From positions 992,001-1,056,000 of the forward strand of contig CAJYDM010000001.1 in NCBI GenBank assembly GCA_913757435.1: DNA of 64,000 bases. Direction: 5' to 3'. The first letter of the stretch is position 1; each line of letters starts with the position of its first letter. A program made the translations under genes and the position numbers. This document shows, one piece after another, positions 40,258 through 51,991 of this stretch. This DNA comes from Syntrophomonas sp. DTU019 (GTDB taxonomy: Bacteria; Bacillota; Syntrophomonadia; Syntrophomonadales; Syntrophomonadaceae). A model generated the notes under the pieces. It saw only the letters and a program-made list of their open reading frames with translations, did no database searches and was not told the origin of the DNA.

Positions 40258-42513
40258 TTAATCGGTTATAATGCGATTTAATTCTGTCAGGGTGCCATTC
40301 TGGTTGGCTTTGATCATACCCTCTGATAAGGTGTAGAGATTGCCCCCCAGGTAGACTACGCGCTGGATCTCGCGGTTGCTGCCGCCCCAGTAGTCCCCGG
40401 CCTTGAGGTAATCCTGCTGGTCCAGGTGGGTTATGCGCCCCTGCAGATTGAAGCCCTGAGCTGAGACATTGTAGACATAGGCTCCCTGGAAGGCGAAGGA
40501 GCCATAACCACCGCTGCCTTCATAGACAGTCACCGGGAAGGCCAGGATGTTGTCATACATCATAAAAGCCTTGTGGTTATTGGTGGCTTCTGAACGGGTT
40601 CCCGAAGTGCCGATCACCGTCTTGCAGACTTCGACAGGATGATTGACATCGGCCACATCAAACAGACTCAGTTTCAGGCCTGTGGTCTGAGTAGCCTTGC
40701 CCACTTCTTCGACTTCACTGCCCAGGCCGATAAGGTAATGGTCACCATAGGGGTGCAGGTAATTGCTGAATCCGGGGATCTTGAGTTTGCCCAGGATTTT
40801 GGGTTCAGTGGGATTCATATCGATGACAAACAGGGGGTCTATCTGTCTGAAGGTGACCAGATAAGCCCGTGGCCCCATGAAGCGGGCTGAATAGATTCTC
40901 TCGCCGGGGGCGATGTCCTGGATAGCCCCGGTCTGTCTCATATTGGCGTTGAGGATGTAGATCGCATTGGCTGACCGGATCGTATCCCATTGCTGGCTGG
41001 TGGTGGCGATGCGAAAATGGCCTTCATATTCGTCCATGGAAAACTGGTTCAAGACCGTACCCGGGACCAGCCCGCGGTTAACATAGCGTACCCCGTCCCC
41101 CAGGCCGAATTTGTAGACCACGGTGCTCTCGGTGTCCCGCATGCTGCCTTCCCGATAGTAGCTGGGGTGGTAATGTGATGCCGCTATATAGAGATTGTTG
41201 GGTGAGCAGAACACATTGCCGCTGGAACCGAGGAAGGTTTCCAGGTCAAATTTGTTGCCAGCGGTGCTCATCTGTATCTGGGCGATGTTTACATATGAGT
41301 TGAGCTGCATATCGGGGAAATAACGGATCTGATCGTAGTGCTTGGTCTTTTCCTGGCCATTGATGGTATACACTGGCTCGAAAGGCTGGTATACGTATTC
41401 ATTGGTGATCACATAGATGCTGCTGCCAATTTTTCGCGATGACAGGTAGGTTCCGGGAGTTCCGAATTCATCGGCCTTGGTCGGGTTGGCCTTGTTGCTG
41501 GTATCGAACACCGTCACCAGGGTGCGGTTTTGATTCACTGGATAAACAGGCGGCATGATTCTTTTGGCGCTGCTCTCCATTGGCACCGGGTAGGGATAAT
41601 CATAACGGGCTGTGCCATCCTGTATCAATATAAGGCGATTGTGGTCTATATACATCTCCCGGGGATGCTGCAAGAGCGGTATGCGTGCGCTCACCTGCAA
41701 CTGGCTTGCTGGGTAGGCTTTGACAATGATAACTTCATGATCTTTCACTTGATAAAGGTATTCCCCGTCGGTTTTGACGATGTCGGACTCATCTACCCCC
41801 TGCACCTGCACATTGGTTCCTGAATAATCATTTGCGCCGCTGAGCTGGTTGGGGGCTGAATCCGCAACCTGTTCCTGTGCGGGCCTGGCGGACTTCATGC
41901 TCTCAAGGCGTACGCTATAGCCGCTGTTGCCATATTCATCAATTAGGCGCTGCAAATTCTGGGCTGAATTGACCCGGGGAAGATCAGCCCCGGCTGCGGA
42001 GGCGGCCTGAATGATCGCGGCTTGCTCTTCAGGGGTCTGCCCCAGAGTAAATACATGAACCGCCCGGCTGGTATCGTTCCAAACCACTTGGGCGGCAAAG
42101 AATTCCGATATAAAGCGCAAGGGCACCATGGTGCGCCCATTTTTAAGCACTGCTGCGGTGTCCATCTGCCTGGGGCTCTCGCCGCTGATCAGCATCTCGG
42201 TGCTGTTAATGACCAGTGCTGCCTGACGGGCCGGTGTCTCACCGTCAGCAGGGCGTGTAATGGTGACCTGCGAATTATGTGCATCCCAATCCACACTGGC
42301 GCCCAAAGCCAGCGAACAGAACCTGACCGGCACCATGGTGCGATCGTTCTCGTCGATATAGGGAAGCTGGTCCGGGAACAGGGTTTGCACCCCGTTGATA
42401 TAGACATTGACATCCTGGGCCTGAACGGTTGAAGCCGTTAACAGTCCTGCAGCAACAAACACTGACAGCAGCAAACATAAGATTATTGCAACTCCTTTGT
42501 ACCTGGCCGACAT
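40258..42513 (-). CDS. Secreted beta-propeller protein with copper-amine-oxidase-type N-terminal domain
   Basis: 751 aa. A signal peptide (KGVAIILCLLLSVFVAAGLLT, cleavage after VQA-QD) is followed by two stalk repeats of the CuAO-N type: VYINGV...TMVPVRF and LVINST...TMVPLRFISE (residues ~30-155), each with the xxVPLRF signature. The rest (~residues 220-750) is the 'beta propeller domain' family: GVDESDIVKTDGEYLYQV, VFDTSN, IPGFSNYLHPYG, LFDVADV. The protein is probably exported and cell-wall associated; binding partners are unknown. ATG was chosen for the AAGGCGGGG just upstream; a TTG eight codons earlier is an alternative. Confidence 0.85.
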   Translation of the reverse strand: MSARYKGVAIILCLLLSVFVAAGLLTASTVQAQDVNVYINGVQTLFPDQLPYIDENDRTMVPVRFCSLALGASVDWDAHNSQVTITRPADGETPARQAALVINSTEMLISGESPRQMDTAAVLKNGRTMVPLRFISEFFAAQVVWNDTSRAVHVFTLGQTPEEQAAIIQAASAAGADLPRVNSAQNLQRLIDEYGNSGYSVRLESMKSARPAQEQVADSAPNQLSGANDYSGTNVQVQGVDESDIVKTDGEYLYQVKDHEVIIVKAYPASQLQVSARIPLLQHPREMYIDHNRLILIQDGTARYDYPYPVPMESSAKRIMPPVYPVNQNRTLVTVFDTSNKANPTKADEFGTPGTYLSSRKIGSSIYVITNEYVYQPFEPVYTINGQEKTKHYDQIRYFPDMQLNSYVNIAQIQMSTAGNKFDLETFLGSSGNVFCSPNNLYIAASHYHPSYYREGSMRDTESTVVYKFGLGDGVRYVNRGLVPGTVLNQFSMDEYEGHFRIATTSQQWDTIRSANAIYILNANMRQTGAIQDIAPGERIYSARFMGPRAYLVTFRQIDPLFVIDMNPTEPKILGKLKIPGFSNYLHPYGDHYLIGLGSEVEEVGKATQTTGLKLSLFDVADVNHPVEVCKTVIGTSGTRSEATNNHKAFMMYDNILAFPVTVYEGSGGYGSFAFQGAYVYNVSAQGFNLQGRITHLDQQDYLKAGDYWGGSNREIQRVVYLGGNLYTLSEGMIKANQNGTLTELNRIITD

Positions 42514-43032
42514 GGCATCCCCGCCTTTCTGCTTCAAAATTTCCCTTGTATATACCTAATACATATCAGGGCTAAAAATCTTACATCTGGTGGGTACCAT
42601 TTCCACAGCATAAGATTGTGCCGATGTGCTCAGATAAATGCCACTTTTAAAGAGGATTCGACATATTTAACATCATCAAAATATGCCGGTGTGATAACGG
42701 AAAGCATAGTGCAACCAATTAGCCTGAACCAAGAGCTATGAGACTGGACCAGAAATGAAAAACTACCCCTGCGGCGGGGTAGTTTTTCAAGGGCAAACAA
42801 GAGTACTATGAGACTGGTTTTTGGAACGAATCGGAAGATGTTGCTCCTGTTGAGCGTCAAGAGCGTCTGAACCATCTTCTTGTTATGAATGCGTTTATCA
42901 GATTTAAATTTGGGGGTAGGTCCACGCAAAATGAAAAAATTTTTACCTTTTGAAAATGTCCGCTTATTCGCGCGATTGCCCAGCTTAGATATGCTAACAT
43001 GAAATAACGGACAAGCAAGGAGGTCTTTTGGC
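42514..43032. other. Non-coding stretch with terminator-like hairpin between 12-bp direct repeats
   Basis: About 500 bp between divergent genes. It contains a perfect hairpin flanked by direct repeats (listed separately), followed by sequence (about 42818-42995) with broken short reading frames on both strands that may be a decayed insertion element. A 164-codon minus-strand frame across it has unconvincing composition and no recognised motif. Confidence 0.5.
42736..42817. repeat. 12-bp direct repeats flanking a perfect hairpin
   Basis: CTATGAGACTGG occurs at 42736-42747 and 42806-42817. Between them, GAAAAACTACCCC (42757-42769) pairs with GGGGTAGTTTTTC (42776-42788): 13 bp, loop TGCGGC, with A/T tracts on both sides, i.e. 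a bidirectional terminator shape. It is odd to find this between two divergent genes. Confidence 0.75.
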
Positions 43033-44333: not shown

Positions 44334-44591
44334 ATGTATAAATATGAATTCGTCGTCCTCAGTGTCAACCAGTTAAAGGGCAAACGCATCGAAGGCACCC
44401 GCGATTATGACCTCAAGGTGCGGGTGAGCAAGGCTGAAGAGGTGGTTTTCGAGGAAACCATCCGGGTGAGGAAGACCAGCAACGGTGTATTCCCCGAAGA
44501 AGAATTGATTACAAAGAAAATCAAGTCACCCAGTTTGAAGAAGGAACTGATTCAGGAAATAAAAGCCTTTGTGAAAAAACACAAAAAATAA
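44334..44591 (+). CDS. Small basic hypothetical protein
   Basis: 85 aa, not recognised. Starts MYKYEFVVLSVNQLKGKRIEG; strongly charged, with a lysine-rich C-terminus (KKELIQEIKAFVKKHKK). No membrane segment, cysteine or signal peptide. AGGGGG precedes the ATG at good spacing and codon use looks normal, so it is probably real. It lies 27 bp upstream of the TlpA-like gene and may be cotranscribed with the redox module. Confidence 0.6.
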   Translation: MYKYEFVVLSVNQLKGKRIEGTRDYDLKVRVSKAEEVVFEETIRVRKTSNGVFPEEELITKKIKSPSLKKELIQEIKAFVKKHKK

Positions 44592-44618
44592 GGAATCAAG
44601 TACAGCCAGGAGGTATGT

Positions 44619-45164
44619 ATGAAGAAAGCCATAGCTATGGCGTTGATACTGGTCGTATGGCTTGCCGGAGGATGTGCCGCCCCTGAGTCGCCTGGACCGT
44701 CAGGGAGCAGCACGGCCAGCTCTAAGACGAATCCGCTGGCTGGGCAAGTGATTCCAGCCTTTCAAGCCGTCGACCTGAACGGTCAGGTGGTGACTGAACA
44801 GGTATTCAGGCAGCATACCCTAACCATGGTCAACCTGTGGGGCACCTTCTGCCAGCCCTGTATAAGGGAAATGCCGGATCTGCAAAAGCTGCAGGATAAG
44901 CATCAAGGCTCCGGGGTCAAGATCCTGGGGGTAGTGGTTGACAAAGACGCTGCTGCTGCCAAAAGAATAACTGCTTCGGCCGGAGCAGTGTTCCAGAGTG
45001 TGATTCCCGATGACTCCCTGGAAAAAAACCTCTGCCGGGCCTTTGACTATGTGCCGGCCACCGTATTTGTAGATTCCAATGGCCGGGTCTTGGAGGAACT
45101 GGTCAGCGGCAGCAGCAATTTGGAGGGTTACAGCCGGGTAATCGACCGGCTGCTGAAAAAATAG
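44619..45164 (+). CDS. TlpA-like thioredoxin-fold lipoprotein
   Basis: 181 aa. Lipoprotein signal with lipobox LAGGC (Cys19), a Ser/Pro-rich linker, then a thioredoxin-fold domain with the active site WGTFCQPCIREMP (Cys78, Cys81) and the cis-proline region DYVPATVFVD. It is anchored outside the cytoplasmic membrane and probably reduces (or oxidises) thiols of exported proteins. CAGGAGG precedes the ATG. The CXXC peptide and the Fe-S membrane protein follow, and together they could pass electrons outward to it. Confidence 0.9.
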   Translation: MKKAIAMALILVVWLAGGCAAPESPGPSGSSTASSKTNPLAGQVIPAFQAVDLNGQVVTEQVFRQHTLTMVNLWGTFCQPCIREMPDLQKLQDKHQGSGVKILGVVVDKDAAAAKRITASAGAVFQSVIPDDSLEKNLCRAFDYVPATVFVDSNGRVLEELVSGSSNLEGYSRVIDRLLKK

Positions 45165-45293
45165 ATCTTAGACTCGCGCCAATTGCTTTGATGAATTAGG
45201 CTGATTGTATGACTATATACTAGGGCATGAGCACAACCCGGTGCAGCGATATTTATGATGTCTTATTAAGAGCCATTTTTATGAGGTGAGAAT

Positions 45294-45425
45294 ATGAAAT
45301 TTATCAGGGTCTTGCTCCCACTGGCCGGGGTGGGCATGCTTCTATTCGGGGTAATGCGTCAGGAGCATCTCATAGTATTGACCAAGGCCATAAATATCTG
45401 CCTGGAGTGTGTGGGCATTGGTTAA
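45294..45425 (+). CDS. CD1871A-type CXXC membrane peptide
   Basis: 43 aa: one hydrophobic helix (FIRVLLPLAGVGMLLFGVM), then HLIVLTKAINICLECVGIG. The KAINICLECxGIG end is characteristic of the small 'CD1871A family CXXC motif-containing' proteins. GAGGTGAG lies just before the ATG. The end overlaps the probable start of the Fe-S membrane protein, so they are translated together. The two cysteines at the membrane surface could be a redox relay; this is inference. Confidence 0.8.
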   Translation: MKFIRVLLPLAGVGMLLFGVMRQEHLIVLTKAINICLECVGIG

Positions 45426-46269
45426 ACTGAGGGGCTGGGTGCAGCTGTTCAGTGCGGTCGTGTGGAACCCCATGCTGGGCAATTTTATCAGCGGTCATAT
45501 TTACCGGGGTAAACTCAAACAGATCTGCATCCCCGCCCTGAACTGTTATTCCTGTCCAGGGGCGATAGGGTCATGTCCCTTAGGTTCATTGCAGACTGTT
45601 TTAGCCGACCCCTTTTATAACTTTTCGTTTTATGTAATCGGCTATTTGCTTGTGTTCGGTTCCATTCTAGGGCGCTGGATATGCGGCTGGGTATGCCCTT
45701 TCGGCATGATCCAGGAATGGCTGCACCGGGTGCCGTTCCCCAAAATGTTGTTGCCACGCTGGATGGGGGGAGTAAAATACGGCATACTGGCGGTTTTTGT
45801 GCTTTATCTGCCCATGGCCGGGGCAAAATCTCTGGGATTGGGTGAGCCGGCCTTCTGTAAATACATCTGCCCGGCCGGAACTCTGGAAGCTGGTCTGCCG
45901 CTGCTAGGATTGGTTCCGGGCTTGCGCTCTGCGCTGGGCAGTCTGTTCGCTCTGAAATTGTTCATATTGTTGTTAGTGGTGGTTGTAAGCTTTATGATAT
46001 TCCGCCCCTTTTGCCGGGTGCTGTGCCCGCTGGGAGCTATTTACGGTTTGTTTAACCCGGTGAGTTGGTATCGCTACCAATGCGCACGCGAAGCGTGTAC
46101 CGGTTGCGGTTCCTGTGCGGCAGTGTGCAAGATGGGGGTCAATCCGGCCATAAGACCCAACAGTCCGGAGTGTATTCGTTGCGGGGATTGTTTGCGCAGC
46201 TGCCCTCAGGGTGCTTTGAGTTCTAAATACGGCATCAACTCTACTACTGAAGCTGCCGCTGCCGAATAG
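45418..46269 (+). CDS. NapH/YccM-like membrane 4Fe-4S protein
   Basis: About 283 aa. Membrane helices alternate with cysteine motifs: CIPALNCYSCPGAIGSCPLGS, RWICGWVCPFGMIQEW, FCKYICPAGT, FCRVLCPLGAIYG (the paired CxxxCP loops of the NapH/RdxA/YccM family). At the C-terminus are two ferredoxin-type clusters, CTGCGSCAAVC and CIRCGDCLRSCP. Such proteins move electrons between cytoplasmic ferredoxin or quinol and outside partners. The start may be TTG 45418, coupled to the CXXC peptide, or GTG 45409. It forms a unit with the TlpA-like lipoprotein. Confidence 0.9.
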   Translation: MVKLRGWVQLFSAVVWNPMLGNFISGHIYRGKLKQICIPALNCYSCPGAIGSCPLGSLQTVLADPFYNFSFYVIGYLLVFGSILGRWICGWVCPFGMIQEWLHRVPFPKMLLPRWMGGVKYGILAVFVLYLPMAGAKSLGLGEPAFCKYICPAGTLEAGLPLLGLVPGLRSALGSLFALKLFILLLVVVVSFMIFRPFCRVLCPLGAIYGLFNPVSWYRYQCAREACTGCGSCAAVCKMGVNPAIRPNSPECIRCGDCLRSCPQGALSSKYGINSTTEAAAAE

Positions 46270-46362
46270 ATAAATGGGGATATGATCAGTAGGGTGCGAA
46301 ATTGAATACCTGAAAAAAGGGCTCGGGAATAGCGAAGGTTCGCTGGAAAGGGGTTGCTTGGT

Positions 46363-47064
46363 GTGAAGAACAGACAGCGCTGGATGGTGATAAGCATTTT
46401 AATGCTGATAATTGTGGTTGCAGCCGGATGCAGCCGGACGAATCCCTCCCCACTGAATGATTCCGCCTCTAAGGAGAACGTGTCGGTACAGGGCAGCGGA
46501 ACCGCTAAGGCTAAAACCCTGGCTGAGGTCCTGGCCCAGGGTAAGAACCAGCCCGGGGTTTATTGCGAATATGTAGTCCGGCCTGATCAAGGCAGTCTGC
46601 TTCGGGGAAAACTCTGGATCGCCGGGGACAACCTGCGCGCGGAGAGTATGGAGGAAGGACAGAGCACCGCCATTTTTATACGCAACGGCGCCAAAGGCTA
46701 CAATTACATGTTCACCTCCAGCGATACACAGGCCATAAAAGTGACTGATACCCATCCAGCCGAGGAGATCGATCCCGTAAAAACCCTTCAGGATGTCAGC
46801 GATAAAACCCAGCCCCTGGGCAAAGAGGTCAAAGACGGCAAGAACTGTGTGGTGATTAAATTGGAAGAGGATGAGGTAGTGAACCGCATATGGATCTGGG
46901 AAGAGCAGGGGGTGCCGGTGCGTATCGAGAGCACTTATAATGAGAGCACCACGGTGATGGAATACAGCAATTACAAATTTGAAGCGATACCCGAGGCCAG
47001 GTTTGAACTGCCCGCAGGCATGACGGTAGTGGAGCTTCCCGGAATAGGATCAGGGAATCCGTAA
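46363..47064 (+). CDS. Lipoprotein with LolA/outer-membrane-sorting-like fold
   Basis: 233 aa. Signal with lipobox VVAAGC (Cys ~22), then a domain of beta-strand pattern: GVYCEYVVRP, GKLWIAGDNLRAES, YMFTSSDTQAIKV, RIWIWEEQGVPVRIES and FELPAGMTVVELP. The order (probe strand, W-x-GDxLRxE, W-x-EQGxPVRxE) fits the LolA/LppX-like sorting-protein superfamily (DUF4412-type). Start: GTG with AAAGGGG 9 nt upstream. It follows the Fe-S membrane protein by 93 bp on the same strand. A short hairpin with T-tract lies after the stop. Confidence 0.7.
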   Translation: MKNRQRWMVISILMLIIVVAAGCSRTNPSPLNDSASKENVSVQGSGTAKAKTLAEVLAQGKNQPGVYCEYVVRPDQGSLLRGKLWIAGDNLRAESMEEGQSTAIFIRNGAKGYNYMFTSSDTQAIKVTDTHPAEEIDPVKTLQDVSDKTQPLGKEVKDGKNCVVIKLEEDEVVNRIWIWEEQGVPVRIESTYNESTTVMEYSNYKFEAIPEARFELPAGMTVVELPGIGSGNP

Positions 47065-47136: not shown

Positions 47137-47826
47137 TTAATCACCGCAGACCAGTTTCAGTAGTTCACCTTCCAGGCGCATCAATTCCGGCGAGGCAAAA
47201 GACCTTGCTTCATTTAGGGTCACCGGGAATTCATGGATGATGCGGGAGGGAAGGCTGGATATCAGAAGGATACGGTCAGCCAGGTACAAGGCCTCTTTTA
47301 AATCATGGGTGACCGTAAGCATGGTAAAACGGTGCTGCTCCCACAGCTTGAGCACATCGTCCATGATGTTGACTTTGACCTTCAGGTCCAGGGAAGCGAA
47401 GGCCTCGTCCAACATCAGCAGCTGGGGTGAGACTGCCAGAGCCCGGGCCAGGTTGACCCTTTGCTTCATGCCTCCGCTGAGCTGGGTCGGATAATAATCG
47501 GCAAAGCCTTGCAACTGCAGGTTGTTCAGTAATTCATCGATATTAGCCTGCTCGTTTACAAAGCGCAGATTTTGCCTCACGGTTCGCCAGGGGATCAGGC
47601 GAGGCTCCTGGAATACGAAACCGATGTGATTAGTGCTGACTTCCAGACTGCCCCCTGTAGGGGTTTCCATGCCAGCCAGCAGCCGCAATAAGGTAGTTTT
47701 GCCGGAGCCTGATATACCTAATAACGCTATTCTCTCCGAAGGCCGGATCAGCAGTTCCCAATCCTCCAGCACCTTCAGATCACCATATTGCTTATACACT
47801 CCCTGCAGCTTTATGCTGGCCCCCAT
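47137..47826 (-). CDS. ABC transporter ATPase, nitrate/sulfonate/taurine type
   Basis: 229 aa. Walker A GISGSGKTTLLRLLAG (~residues 37-52), Q-loop FVFQEPRLIPWRTV, signature LSGGMKQRVNLARA, Walker B LLMLDEAFASLD, H-loop LTVTHDLKEAL. The LIPWRTV after the Q-loop is typical of SsuB/TauB-type importers. It is the last gene of a three-gene importer; its start overlaps the permease gene by 16 bases. Confidence 0.92.
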   Translation of the reverse strand: MGASIKLQGVYKQYGDLKVLEDWELLIRPSERIALLGISGSGKTTLLRLLAGMETPTGGSLEVSTNHIGFVFQEPRLIPWRTVRQNLRFVNEQANIDELLNNLQLQGFADYYPTQLSGGMKQRVNLARALAVSPQLLMLDEAFASLDLKVKVNIMDDVLKLWEQHRFTMLTVTHDLKEALYLADRILLISSLPSRIIHEFPVTLNEARSFASPELMRLEGELLKLVCGD

Positions 47827-48554
47827 CGGTCCAGTATCCTCCTTAAAAAGAATTTCACCATCCGTTCAGTGGCTATACCCAGAATACATGCCATAAGTGT
47901 GACTGACCAGGCCCCTGCCGAATCAACTACCAGCCGGGCATTGAAAATCTCTACCCCTAAACCGCTGCCACCGGCCAGGTATTCGGCGACCAGCACCACC
48001 TTCCAGGCTTGCCCGATGGTCACATCGATTATGGCGGCGATAAATGGCAGCAGCGAACCCCAATAGATGTTGTAAAAAACCTTTTTGAACGGCACCCGGT
48101 AAACCCGGGCCATCTCCAGGAGATCCTTATCCAGGCTGCGTATCCCGGATACGGTGGTGAGAATAGCGGTGGGCAAAAGGGACATAAAGGCTATGAAGAC
48201 CGGCCCCCTCCAGCCAATGCCCCAGGCGAAGATCACCAGGGTGAGCCAGGAAACCACGGGCACAGCCTGAATGAACATGATAATGGGACGGAACATATCG
48301 TAGCAAGCTTCAGATAGACCTAAAAAGAGCCCTGCGATGATGCCCAGCAATAACACCAACCCCAGGGCCAGGCCGACTTTCCAGGCGGTCTGCAGGGCAG
48401 CTTCCAGCATTCCGGGATCGATCAAATGTTGAGCCAACAATCCCAGGGTCTCTCTTGGGACCGGTATTATCACCTTGCTGACTATAAATGATAGGATCTG
48501 CCAGCATACCAGGAATATGATGATGCCGGCCAGTGCTCTGCTCAAACCTTTCAT
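47811..48554 (-). CDS. ABC transporter permease, SsuC/TauC type
   Basis: 247 aa with about six membrane segments. It contains the coupling motif LLEMARVYRVPFKKVFYNIYWGSLLPFI and GQAWKVVLVAEYLAGGSGLG, standard for the nitrate/sulfonate/taurine/hydroxymethylpyrimidine group. The start overlaps the binding-protein gene by 4 bases. Confidence 0.9.
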   Translation of the reverse strand: MKGLSRALAGIIIFLVCWQILSFIVSKVIIPVPRETLGLLAQHLIDPGMLEAALQTAWKVGLALGLVLLLGIIAGLFLGLSEACYDMFRPIIMFIQAVPVVSWLTLVIFAWGIGWRGPVFIAFMSLLPTAILTTVSGIRSLDKDLLEMARVYRVPFKKVFYNIYWGSLLPFIAAIIDVTIGQAWKVVLVAEYLAGGSGLGVEIFNARLVVDSAGAWSVTLMACILGIATERMVKFFLRRILDRWGPA

Positions 48555-49546
48555 TCACCGTAGAATCCTTCATCGGGCAGTTGTTTTATAGCATTGCGGT
48601 CGATCTGTTGAATGGTCTCCAGGTATTTTTTTACCTCCTCGCGGCATTCCGCAGTCGGCACATATTTAAACTCGGTGCGCTGCAGTGAGGCCTTCATGAC
48701 CGCCGCTGGCAGGGGCAGGGTAGTCTTGGCCTGCTCGATGGCGGCATCGGGATTGCTATTGCACCAATTGGTAGCGTCGGTTAGGAGCTGGGCTACATCC
48801 TTCACCGCTTGCGGATTCTTGGCTGCATAATCCTTTTTCACAAAAAGGCCTGCAATAGGCACGCGGGGTTCGACCCCGGCTGCCTGGCCCCAATATTCCT
48901 GGTAGTCGAGCACGATAGAGCCGGCATTGTCTTTCATGGCCAGGGTTACATACGGTTCGGGCAAGGCTGCGTAATCAATCTTTCCAGCCTGGAAGAGGCT
49001 GACCACTTCCTGCGGCGGAGCATAGACGAACTTGATGTCCTGATCCGGGGTGAGGCCTGCCTTAATAAGCCCTAAGCGGGAGAGAATATCCACGGTCTGG
49101 CCCTTGCCCACCGGCATATATAGAGATCTATCCTTTAAAGAGGTCCAGTCGGTAAATGCCACCCCTTTGCGGGCCAGTAGATAGAACACTTTCCATTCAT
49201 GAACACCTAGCATCACCAGGTCTTTCTGATTGGCATACAAGTTGGCCGCCATAGTAACCGGCAAAACCGCAAAATCGGTCTGGTTGCCGGCTATCAGCCC
49301 GATGGCCTCATCATTGCTTTTCCAGTAAGACACTTTAACTGTGACCGGTCCTTTGACAGCGCCGTTCTCAATTCCAGCCACTGGCAAAACCAGAGGGCCG
49401 AGCGGATTTATCAATTTAGCTTCGGTCGGCTGGGCAGGCTGAACCGGCTGCGGAGCACCCTGCTGGCACCCGCCCAGGGCGGATGTCAATAATAGTATCA
49501 AAGCCGCCAGAAGAAGGCGGCGTACTAAACAGCGTCTTTTTCCCAT
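48551..49546 (-). CDS. ABC substrate-binding lipoprotein, SsuA/NMT1-like
   Basis: 331 aa. Lipoprotein signal with lipobox SALGGC, then the periplasmic-binding-protein fold: AGNQTDFAVLPVTMAANLYA, KDRSLYMPVGKGQTVDILS and FQAGKIDYAALPEPYVTLAM, as in NMT1/SsuA-like receptors. The ligand is not evident. ATG was chosen for the GGGGGG 7 nt upstream; an open extension of 78 codons upstream has no family features. It heads the three-gene importer that converges on the redox module. Confidence 0.88.
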   Translation of the reverse strand: MGKRRCLVRRLLLAALILLLTSALGGCQQGAPQPVQPAQPTEAKLINPLGPLVLPVAGIENGAVKGPVTVKVSYWKSNDEAIGLIAGNQTDFAVLPVTMAANLYANQKDLVMLGVHEWKVFYLLARKGVAFTDWTSLKDRSLYMPVGKGQTVDILSRLGLIKAGLTPDQDIKFVYAPPQEVVSLFQAGKIDYAALPEPYVTLAMKDNAGSIVLDYQEYWGQAAGVEPRVPIAGLFVKKDYAAKNPQAVKDVAQLLTDATNWCNSNPDAAIEQAKTTLPLPAAVMKASLQRTEFKYVPTAECREEVKKYLETIQQIDRNAIKQLPDEGFYGE

Positions 49547-49614
49547 GTGATCGCCCCCCAGATGTGAATTTATGTTAAATATATCACAAAACAATCTCAG
49601 GCTATACAATTGCA

Positions 49615-49645
49615 TAAAAAAAGGAGCGTCCCAAGAACGCTCCTT
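49615..49645 (-). terminator. Rho-independent terminator behind the coat-protein genes
   Basis: On the minus strand AAGGAGCGT pairs with ACGCTCCTT around TTCTTGGG, followed by a T-tract (TTTTTTT). It separates the coat genes from the downstream importer operon. Confidence 0.9.
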
Positions 49646-49661
49646 CTGGTTTATTACACAA

Positions 49662-49919
49662 TTAGGAGGAAATTTGGGACTTAACGGTCTGGATGTCCTG
49701 GGAGTCGGCTTGAGCGGCAGGTTTATAGAAACCCTTCTGTTCAGCCAGCTGAAACAGTTGATACTGGAATTGCTCGTCACTGTTACGAATCTGCTGAATG
49801 GTGGAACGAAGCTGTTGATTGGCGGTTTCGCTGATTACACTGGCATACGTGGTCAAGCTGGCGTTGGTCATGGACAGGATGTCATTGACCATTTCTTTGT
49901 CAGTCATGTGTTTGTTCAT
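49662..49919 (-). CDS. CotF-type spore coat protein
   Basis: 85 aa of the CotF/ferritin-like coat family. It has the pattern KEMVNDILSMTNASLTTYASVISETANQQLRSTI...DEQFQYQLFQLAEQKGFYKPA, with two amphipathic helices and the GFYKPA-type end. It is a structural protein of the spore coat. AAGGAGA before the ATG. It is second in a two-gene unit that ends in a good terminator. Confidence 0.88.
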   Translation of the reverse strand: MNKHMTDKEMVNDILSMTNASLTTYASVISETANQQLRSTIQQIRNSDEQFQYQLFQLAEQKGFYKPAAQADSQDIQTVKSQISS

Positions 49920-51589: not shown

Positions 51590-51991
51590 ATGACTGAGAA
51601 GAAGGGCAGATCGGAGGAAGAATGGAAAAAGATTTTGTCTCCTGAGTCCTACCGCATTTTGCGACAAAAAGGCACTGAGGCACCATTCCATAATAAATAC
51701 TACAACCACCATGAAAATGGGGTTTATTACTGTGCCGGCTGCGGTCAGCCCCTGTTCAGCTCCGAAGTAAAATACGAGTCCGGATCGGGTTGGCCCAGCT
51801 TCTACCAGCCCATCGAGAAAGAGGCCTTGGACCAGGCCCGGGATGTAAGCCACGGGATGATGCGCACTGAAGTGATGTGCAAGGCCTGCGGTGGTCATCT
51901 GGGGCACGTGTTCCCTGACGGGCCCAGGCCTACCGGTATGCGCTACTGCATTAATTCTGGAGCGCTGGATTTCAAGCCCAAAGACGAATAG
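51590..51991 (+). CDS. msrB: Peptide-methionine (R)-S-oxide reductase
   Basis: 133 aa. Repairs methionine-R-sulfoxide in proteins. The zinc site is two CxxC pairs (CAGC, CKAC); the catalytic cysteine is in RYCINSGAL (Cys120). [10 protein letters not shown] and GHVFPDGP are standard. It is the Cys, not the selenocysteine, form. AAGGAGG precedes the ATG. Stands alone, with no msrA fusion. Confidence 0.96.

Follow-up and report, generated by a model that had tools for sequence, protein, structure and literature searches.

A candidate Fe-S-based transmembrane thiol reductase in Syntrophomonas and other anaerobes, built from a CXXC micropeptide and a NapH-like protein beside an exported TlpA

A module of three genes, encoding a TlpA/ResA-type thioredoxin-like lipoprotein, a CXXC micropeptide and a NapH-like membrane Fe-S protein, is found in a 64,000 nt stretch of DNA from Syntrophomonas sp. 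DTU019 (the window; GCA_913757435.1, CAJYDM010000001.1, positions 992,001-1,056,000, forward strand). Peptide and NapH-like gene form an obligate pair and are almost inseparable. The pair quite probably acts as a transmembrane reductase that feeds the exported TlpA/ResA-type thioredoxin, performing the job of CcdA/DsbD via Fe-S clusters. On balance, we also favour the broader reading that this is a new class of transmembrane thiol reductase, in which an Fe-S wire with an extra outer Cys site, together with a CxxC micropeptide, would bring low-potential electrons to exported thioredoxins (Cys or Sec) and replace CcdA/DsbD in numerous anaerobes, treponemes and bacteria of the human gut among them.

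The module genes and their products

Five same-strand open reading frames occupy window 44334-47064, with the positions and order given in an earlier note on this DNA, and the core module spans 44619-46269 (Table 1). The note had considered that the 85-aa basic protein and the LolA-like second lipoprotein might belong to the module as well, which is ruled out by the rarity of their homologues beside the module (Table 1), those of the 85-aa protein all coming from the window's own family. No family matched the 85-aa protein in NCBIfam and Pfam profile searches, while the second lipoprotein, which probably starts at GTG 46363, fell below every Pfam cut-off. Other genes near the module in the window include those of an NMT1/SsuA-type ABC transporter recognised by eye (47137-49780, minus strand; ATPase, permease and substrate-binding lipoprotein), a large exported protein that begins like copper-amine-oxidase-N and otherwise resembles a beta-propeller, also by eye (40258-42537, minus strand), and, about 5 kb from the module, an MsrB methionine sulfoxide reductase with no obvious export signal (51590-51991, plus strand).

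Table 1. Features of the module and its flanking genes (window coordinates)
Feature	Position	Strand	Remarks
85-aa basic protein	44334..44591	+	outside module; no family matches, homologue in 4/54 loci
TlpA/ResA-type thioredoxin-like lipoprotein, 181 aa	44619..45164	+	lipobox, Redoxin domain
CD1871A-family CXXC micropeptide, 43 aa	45294..45425	+	NF040920
NapH-like membrane Fe-S protein, 283-286 aa	45418..46269	+	Fer4_5, Fer4; likely start
8-nt overlap, peptide stop / NapH-like start (translational coupling)	45418..45425	+	spacing statistics, named loci
Second lipoprotein, weakly DUF4412/LolA-like	46363..47064	+	outside module; homologue in 2/54 loci; probable start

The TlpA-type lipoprotein has a lipobox (..VWLAGGC, by eye) and the active site WGTFCQPC. 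The Pfam domain Redoxin was matched at 55.0 bits (cut-off 26.6), AhpC-TSA was also above its cut-off, and ResA and TlpA were the closest solved structures in the PDB; the threshold of the ResA subfamily NF002854 was missed (64.1 bits vs a cut-off of 170). We propose that this protein is an extracytoplasmic thiol carrier. It is the one exported TlpA of its genome, where the only other AhpC/TSA match is a probable selenocysteine peroxiredoxin with a TGA active-site codon (PGDFTFVUATE; L187:1285-2133, minus strand, G000:C2 near 119.2-119.6 kb), and where SelB is matched at 408 bits. At 18 Bacillota module loci, a TGA stands exactly at the codon of TlpA's first active-site Cys (in motifs e.g. FFSPGUxxC). 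SelB was above cut-off in 17/18 of these genomes vs 18/36 of the other module genomes (p=0.002), the one UGA-TlpA genome without it being 90% complete. Given the position of the UGA at the active-site Cys and this distribution of SelB, the codon is best read as selenocysteine.

The micropeptide matches NF040920 ('CD1871A family CXXC motif-containing protein') at 60.6 bits against a cut-off of 32, and a profile search gave it no Pfam family. The match provides a name only, in line with the earlier note's remark that the family is described by name and not by function. Its motif is CLEC (residues 36-39), and C36, C39 and G41 are invariant among the homologues, all of which place the CxxC near the C-terminus. 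The peptide had been taken for a single helix; the structure prediction instead gives two, at residues 2-21 and 24-40 (pLDDT 89.7), of which the N-terminal one is a hydrophobic membrane helix and the second amphipathic with the CxxC at its end. The charge distribution of the peptide favours neither membrane orientation.

The NapH-like protein contains Fer4_5 and Fer4 domains (Pfam), and misses the NapH cut-off widely (TIGR02163; 59.6 bits vs 213.05 bits). Its reading frame is open from GTG 45409, while a start at TTG 45418 would give an 8-nt overlap with the peptide stop. The latter is the likely start and GTG 45409 less likely, since this overlap is the commonest spacing elsewhere: a NapH-like start at -7 relative to the peptide end is possible in 44/77 named loci, the runner-up spacing in 13/77. 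The overlap of the peptide with the start of its neighbour, as originally described, is thus upheld, at 8 nt with this start. The AlphaFold model of the protein is confident (pLDDT 91.2), and a search with its membrane part returned no solved structural relative, the matches being to ferredoxin-like domains only.

Cysteine conservation in the NapH-like protein was examined in sets of 54 and 75 homologues, with residues numbered here in the GTG 45409 frame. Invariant cysteines among the 54 homologues fall into four membrane-associated motifs and two 4Fe-4S motifs. In an alignment, E. coli NapH has counterparts of the two CX3CP motifs (C92/C96 and C202/C206) and of the two C-terminal 4Fe-4S motifs (C230-C240 and C255-C265), but it lacks C40, C46, C49, C56, C150 and C154. 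Among these extra residues, C46, C49, C56 and C154 are invariant in the 54 homologues, a Cys near position 40 is present in all but shifted in 17 sequences, and position 150 is Cys in 45/54 and Ser in 9/54. The N- and C-termini of E. coli NapH are cytosolic, which by homology would place the extra cysteines in two loops on the outer face of the membrane, although the proposed outer loop 1 has a net positive charge, contrary to the positive-inside rule. As these putatively extracytoplasmic residues are missing from E. coli NapH, their conservation suggests that the subfamily may be an Fe-S wire that reaches the outer face, and is suggestive of a putative outer cluster and neighbouring thiol pair beside the CxxC peptide.

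Conservation of the module and its distribution relative to CcdA

The peptide was present in 54 of 398 genomes from the same phylum (Bacillota), and at all 54 loci the NapH-like gene is the next module gene 3' of it. This adjacency confirms that the pairing is not due to chance. The same holds directly after the peptide at 18/18 loci in Spirochaetota. When the 398 genomes were searched at the DNA level for the NapH-like Fe-S signature P-x-L-N-C-Y-[SA]-C-P, 53 matched, 50 of which were already listed; the three remaining genomes have a divergent peptide just upstream (CLSCIGVQ, CLSCIGIE and CFSCIGLE), such that none of the 53 lacks the peptide. At named loci from Bacillota, Spirochaetota, Synergistota and Coriobacteriia, the peptide is present in 77/80. 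No natural fusion of peptide and NapH-like protein was seen among the Bacillota and named loci. Angelakisella massiliensis (L085, L101) and Treponema berlinense (G414) each carry the module or peptide twice, the copies of A. massiliensis having different TlpA types on opposite sides.

A TlpA homologue adjoins the pair, upstream or downstream, in 46/54 Bacillota loci, in 66/80 named loci (plus L112) and in 17/18 Spirochaetota loci. When the neighbours of 133 loci were clustered, TlpA was the only recurrent dedicated third partner, other recurrent neighbours being only generic regulators (two-component) and transporters, with no conserved substrate gene beside the module. The earlier note had called for a survey of co-occurrence, and had regarded genes scattered across genomes as evidence against a module; the three core genes in fact occur together, adjacent to one another, across all four of these groups. 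The remaining 8/54 loci have the pair with no adjacent TlpA, and all eight are among the nine loci with Ser in place of C150 (L038, L040, L041, L043, L044, L048, L051 and L053, all Bacillota). The ninth, L054, has Ser-150 with TlpA adjacent. Ser-150 proteins possibly belong to a clade that has another partner.

The CcdA/DsbD family (PF02683) is strongly depleted from genomes that carry the module, as the earlier note had anticipated. It was found in 15/54 module genomes vs 252/344 others in Bacillota (p=2.6e-10, or p=3.4e-9 with the three rescued divergent-peptide genomes counted) and in 2/28 vs 128/169 in Spirochaetota (p=3.0e-12), but these Fisher tests treat genomes as independent, which they are not, so the p-values overstate certainty, and the stronger points are that the two phyla agree and that the contrast recurs within the window's own family. 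In that family, CcdA is present in 7/8 genomes without the module and in 2/6 with it; four of the six have none, and a fifth has a marginal match only (E 9e-4). Among 19 genomes with named loci, including Angelakisella massiliensis, Coprococcus catus, Agathobaculum desmolans, Treponema berlinense and a Collinsella, there was a single borderline match to PF02683, in a Synergistaceae genome.

The window's own genome gave no PF02683 match in a profile search, nor was PF02683 or DsbD_TM found among the module proteins, so that the functional CcdA partner for this TlpA which would have spoken against the original proposal was not found. The only piece of the CcdA superfamily found in this genome is a half-length DsbD_2/TauE-SafE-like reading frame (MPCGP) with a cupredoxin-like domain, which is situated away from TlpA beside a copper P-type ATPase (L186:6019-6699, G000:C3 near 258 kb), and is judged to be a copper protein. 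Among 20 CcdA loci examined in other genomes, a gene matching the TlpA profile adjoined CcdA in 19 (E 1e-4 to 1e-40); hence either CcdA or the peptide and NapH-like pair occupies the same slot at the side of TlpA. As the module is mostly found in genomes without CcdA/DsbD, it is probably a previously undescribed replacement for them.

Proposed electron route and rival explanations

In the route that we propose, reduced ferredoxin (or quinol, in species having it) would donate electrons to the two cytosolic 4Fe-4S clusters of the NapH-like protein, from which they would pass to an inner site that the two CX3CP motifs would form, then to an outer site of extracytoplasmic-loop cysteines (C40, C46, C49 and C56; C150 and C154), and finally through the CxxC of the micropeptide, which would connect the Fe-S protein to TlpA. 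Fe-S clusters would therefore take the place of the membrane thiol relay of CcdA/DsbD, and TlpA would keep extracytoplasmic thiols reduced, with a selenol at TlpA in many species. The route presumes that clusters occupy these sites, that the predicted topology holds, with the CxxC on the outer side, and that the peptide and TlpA exchange thiols, while we infer its direction, toward TlpA, from the swap with CcdA. No match to UbiA prenyltransferase was found in 17/54 module genomes, where quinones are thus probably missing, making quinol unlikely as a general donor; ferredoxin is probably the electron source. Points that weigh against the proposal are the PF02683 matches in 15/54 module genomes, the 8/54 loci with no TlpA beside the pair, the half-length DsbD_2-type frame of the window's own genome and the positive charge of outer loop 1.

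The micropeptide could instead be a structural subunit, whose CxxC ligates an extracytoplasmic cluster that reduces TlpA directly, as in ferredoxin:thioredoxin reductase, with no separate thiol relay. A stoichiometric subunit would agree with the invariance of the CxxC and its constant spacing from the C-terminus, as well as with the fixed overlap between the peptide and NapH-like genes, and the CxxC is kept where TlpA is not adjacent. We nevertheless think this somewhat unlikely, in that the NapH-like protein would have four ligands of its own in C46, C49, C56 and C154, and the CxxC is also kept where C150 is Ser. Another explanation is that the pair serves some other extracytoplasmic acceptor, such as a metal, a flavin or a respiratory enzyme, with TlpA only maturing or protecting that acceptor. 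NapH-like proteins are modular electron conduits to many acceptors, including FMN-linked or flavinylated partners (PMC8238504), and the loci at which the pair lacks TlpA (8/54) all have Ser at C150. Against this, no other dedicated gene recurs in the 133 loci and the depletion of CcdA would stay unexplained, which makes such an acceptor quite unlikely.

Electrons might also flow in reverse, with TlpA taking them from extracytoplasmic thiols inward, as in an anaerobic disulfide-forming system. VKOR is missing from 53/54 module genomes, so an oxidant could be lacking. However, CcdA, the gene that is anticorrelated with the module and takes the equivalent position beside TlpA, donates reductant, and TlpA/ResA-type CxPC proteins and their UxxC variants are typically reductants; reverse flow thus appears very unlikely.

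Relation to known systems and implications

CcdA, DsbD and ScsB (PF02683) pass electrons across the membrane to TlpA/ResA-like proteins, in the case of CcdA from cytosolic thioredoxin by a relay through two membrane Cys. The pair described here resembles them in its place beside a TlpA/ResA-like gene and differs in fold and chemistry, comprising a NapH-like Fe-S protein and a CxxC peptide, and the two systems are anticorrelated across genomes. With NapH, NosR, PceC and FMN-linked conduits the NapH-like protein shares the inner CX3CP pair, the two 4Fe-4S motifs and the membrane helices. Unlike these conduits, it has the extra outer-loop Cys, and its partners are a thioredoxin and a CxxC peptide as opposed to a cytochrome, NapG or a flavinylated domain. 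Periplasmic nitrate reductase genes, the context of NapH, do not lie beside the module, the recurrent neighbour in the 133 loci being TlpA; no FMN-binding domain was found in the module proteins by Pfam, nor as a recurrent neighbour cluster in these loci, for which clustering was used and not a Pfam scan. Ferredoxin:thioredoxin reductase also reduces a thioredoxin disulfide with a 4Fe-4S cluster, but is soluble and has no homology seen here, whereas the pair described here would bridge the membrane and act on a thioredoxin that is exported.

The window micropeptide is a member of CD1871A (NF040920), and no description was found of an obligate Fe-S partner or of anticorrelation with CcdA for this family. 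A full-text search, to which subscription journals were largely external, found no literature on CD1871A or on a TlpA and NapH module, the nearest being the study of NapH-like conduits (PMC8238504). The module is probably a NapH-type conduit that serves an exported thioredoxin in the place of CcdA, for which we found no earlier description.

Among the carriers of the module are treponemes and genera of the gut such as Coprococcus, Agathobaculum and Collinsella. To our knowledge, the known systems do not explain how exported thiols are reduced in anaerobes that lack CcdA/DsbD, and the module offers a specific three-gene candidate for this. CD1871A, a family named but without an assigned function, gains a likely role, and, if the proposal is true, pools of ferredoxin would be linked directly to extracytoplasmic thiols.
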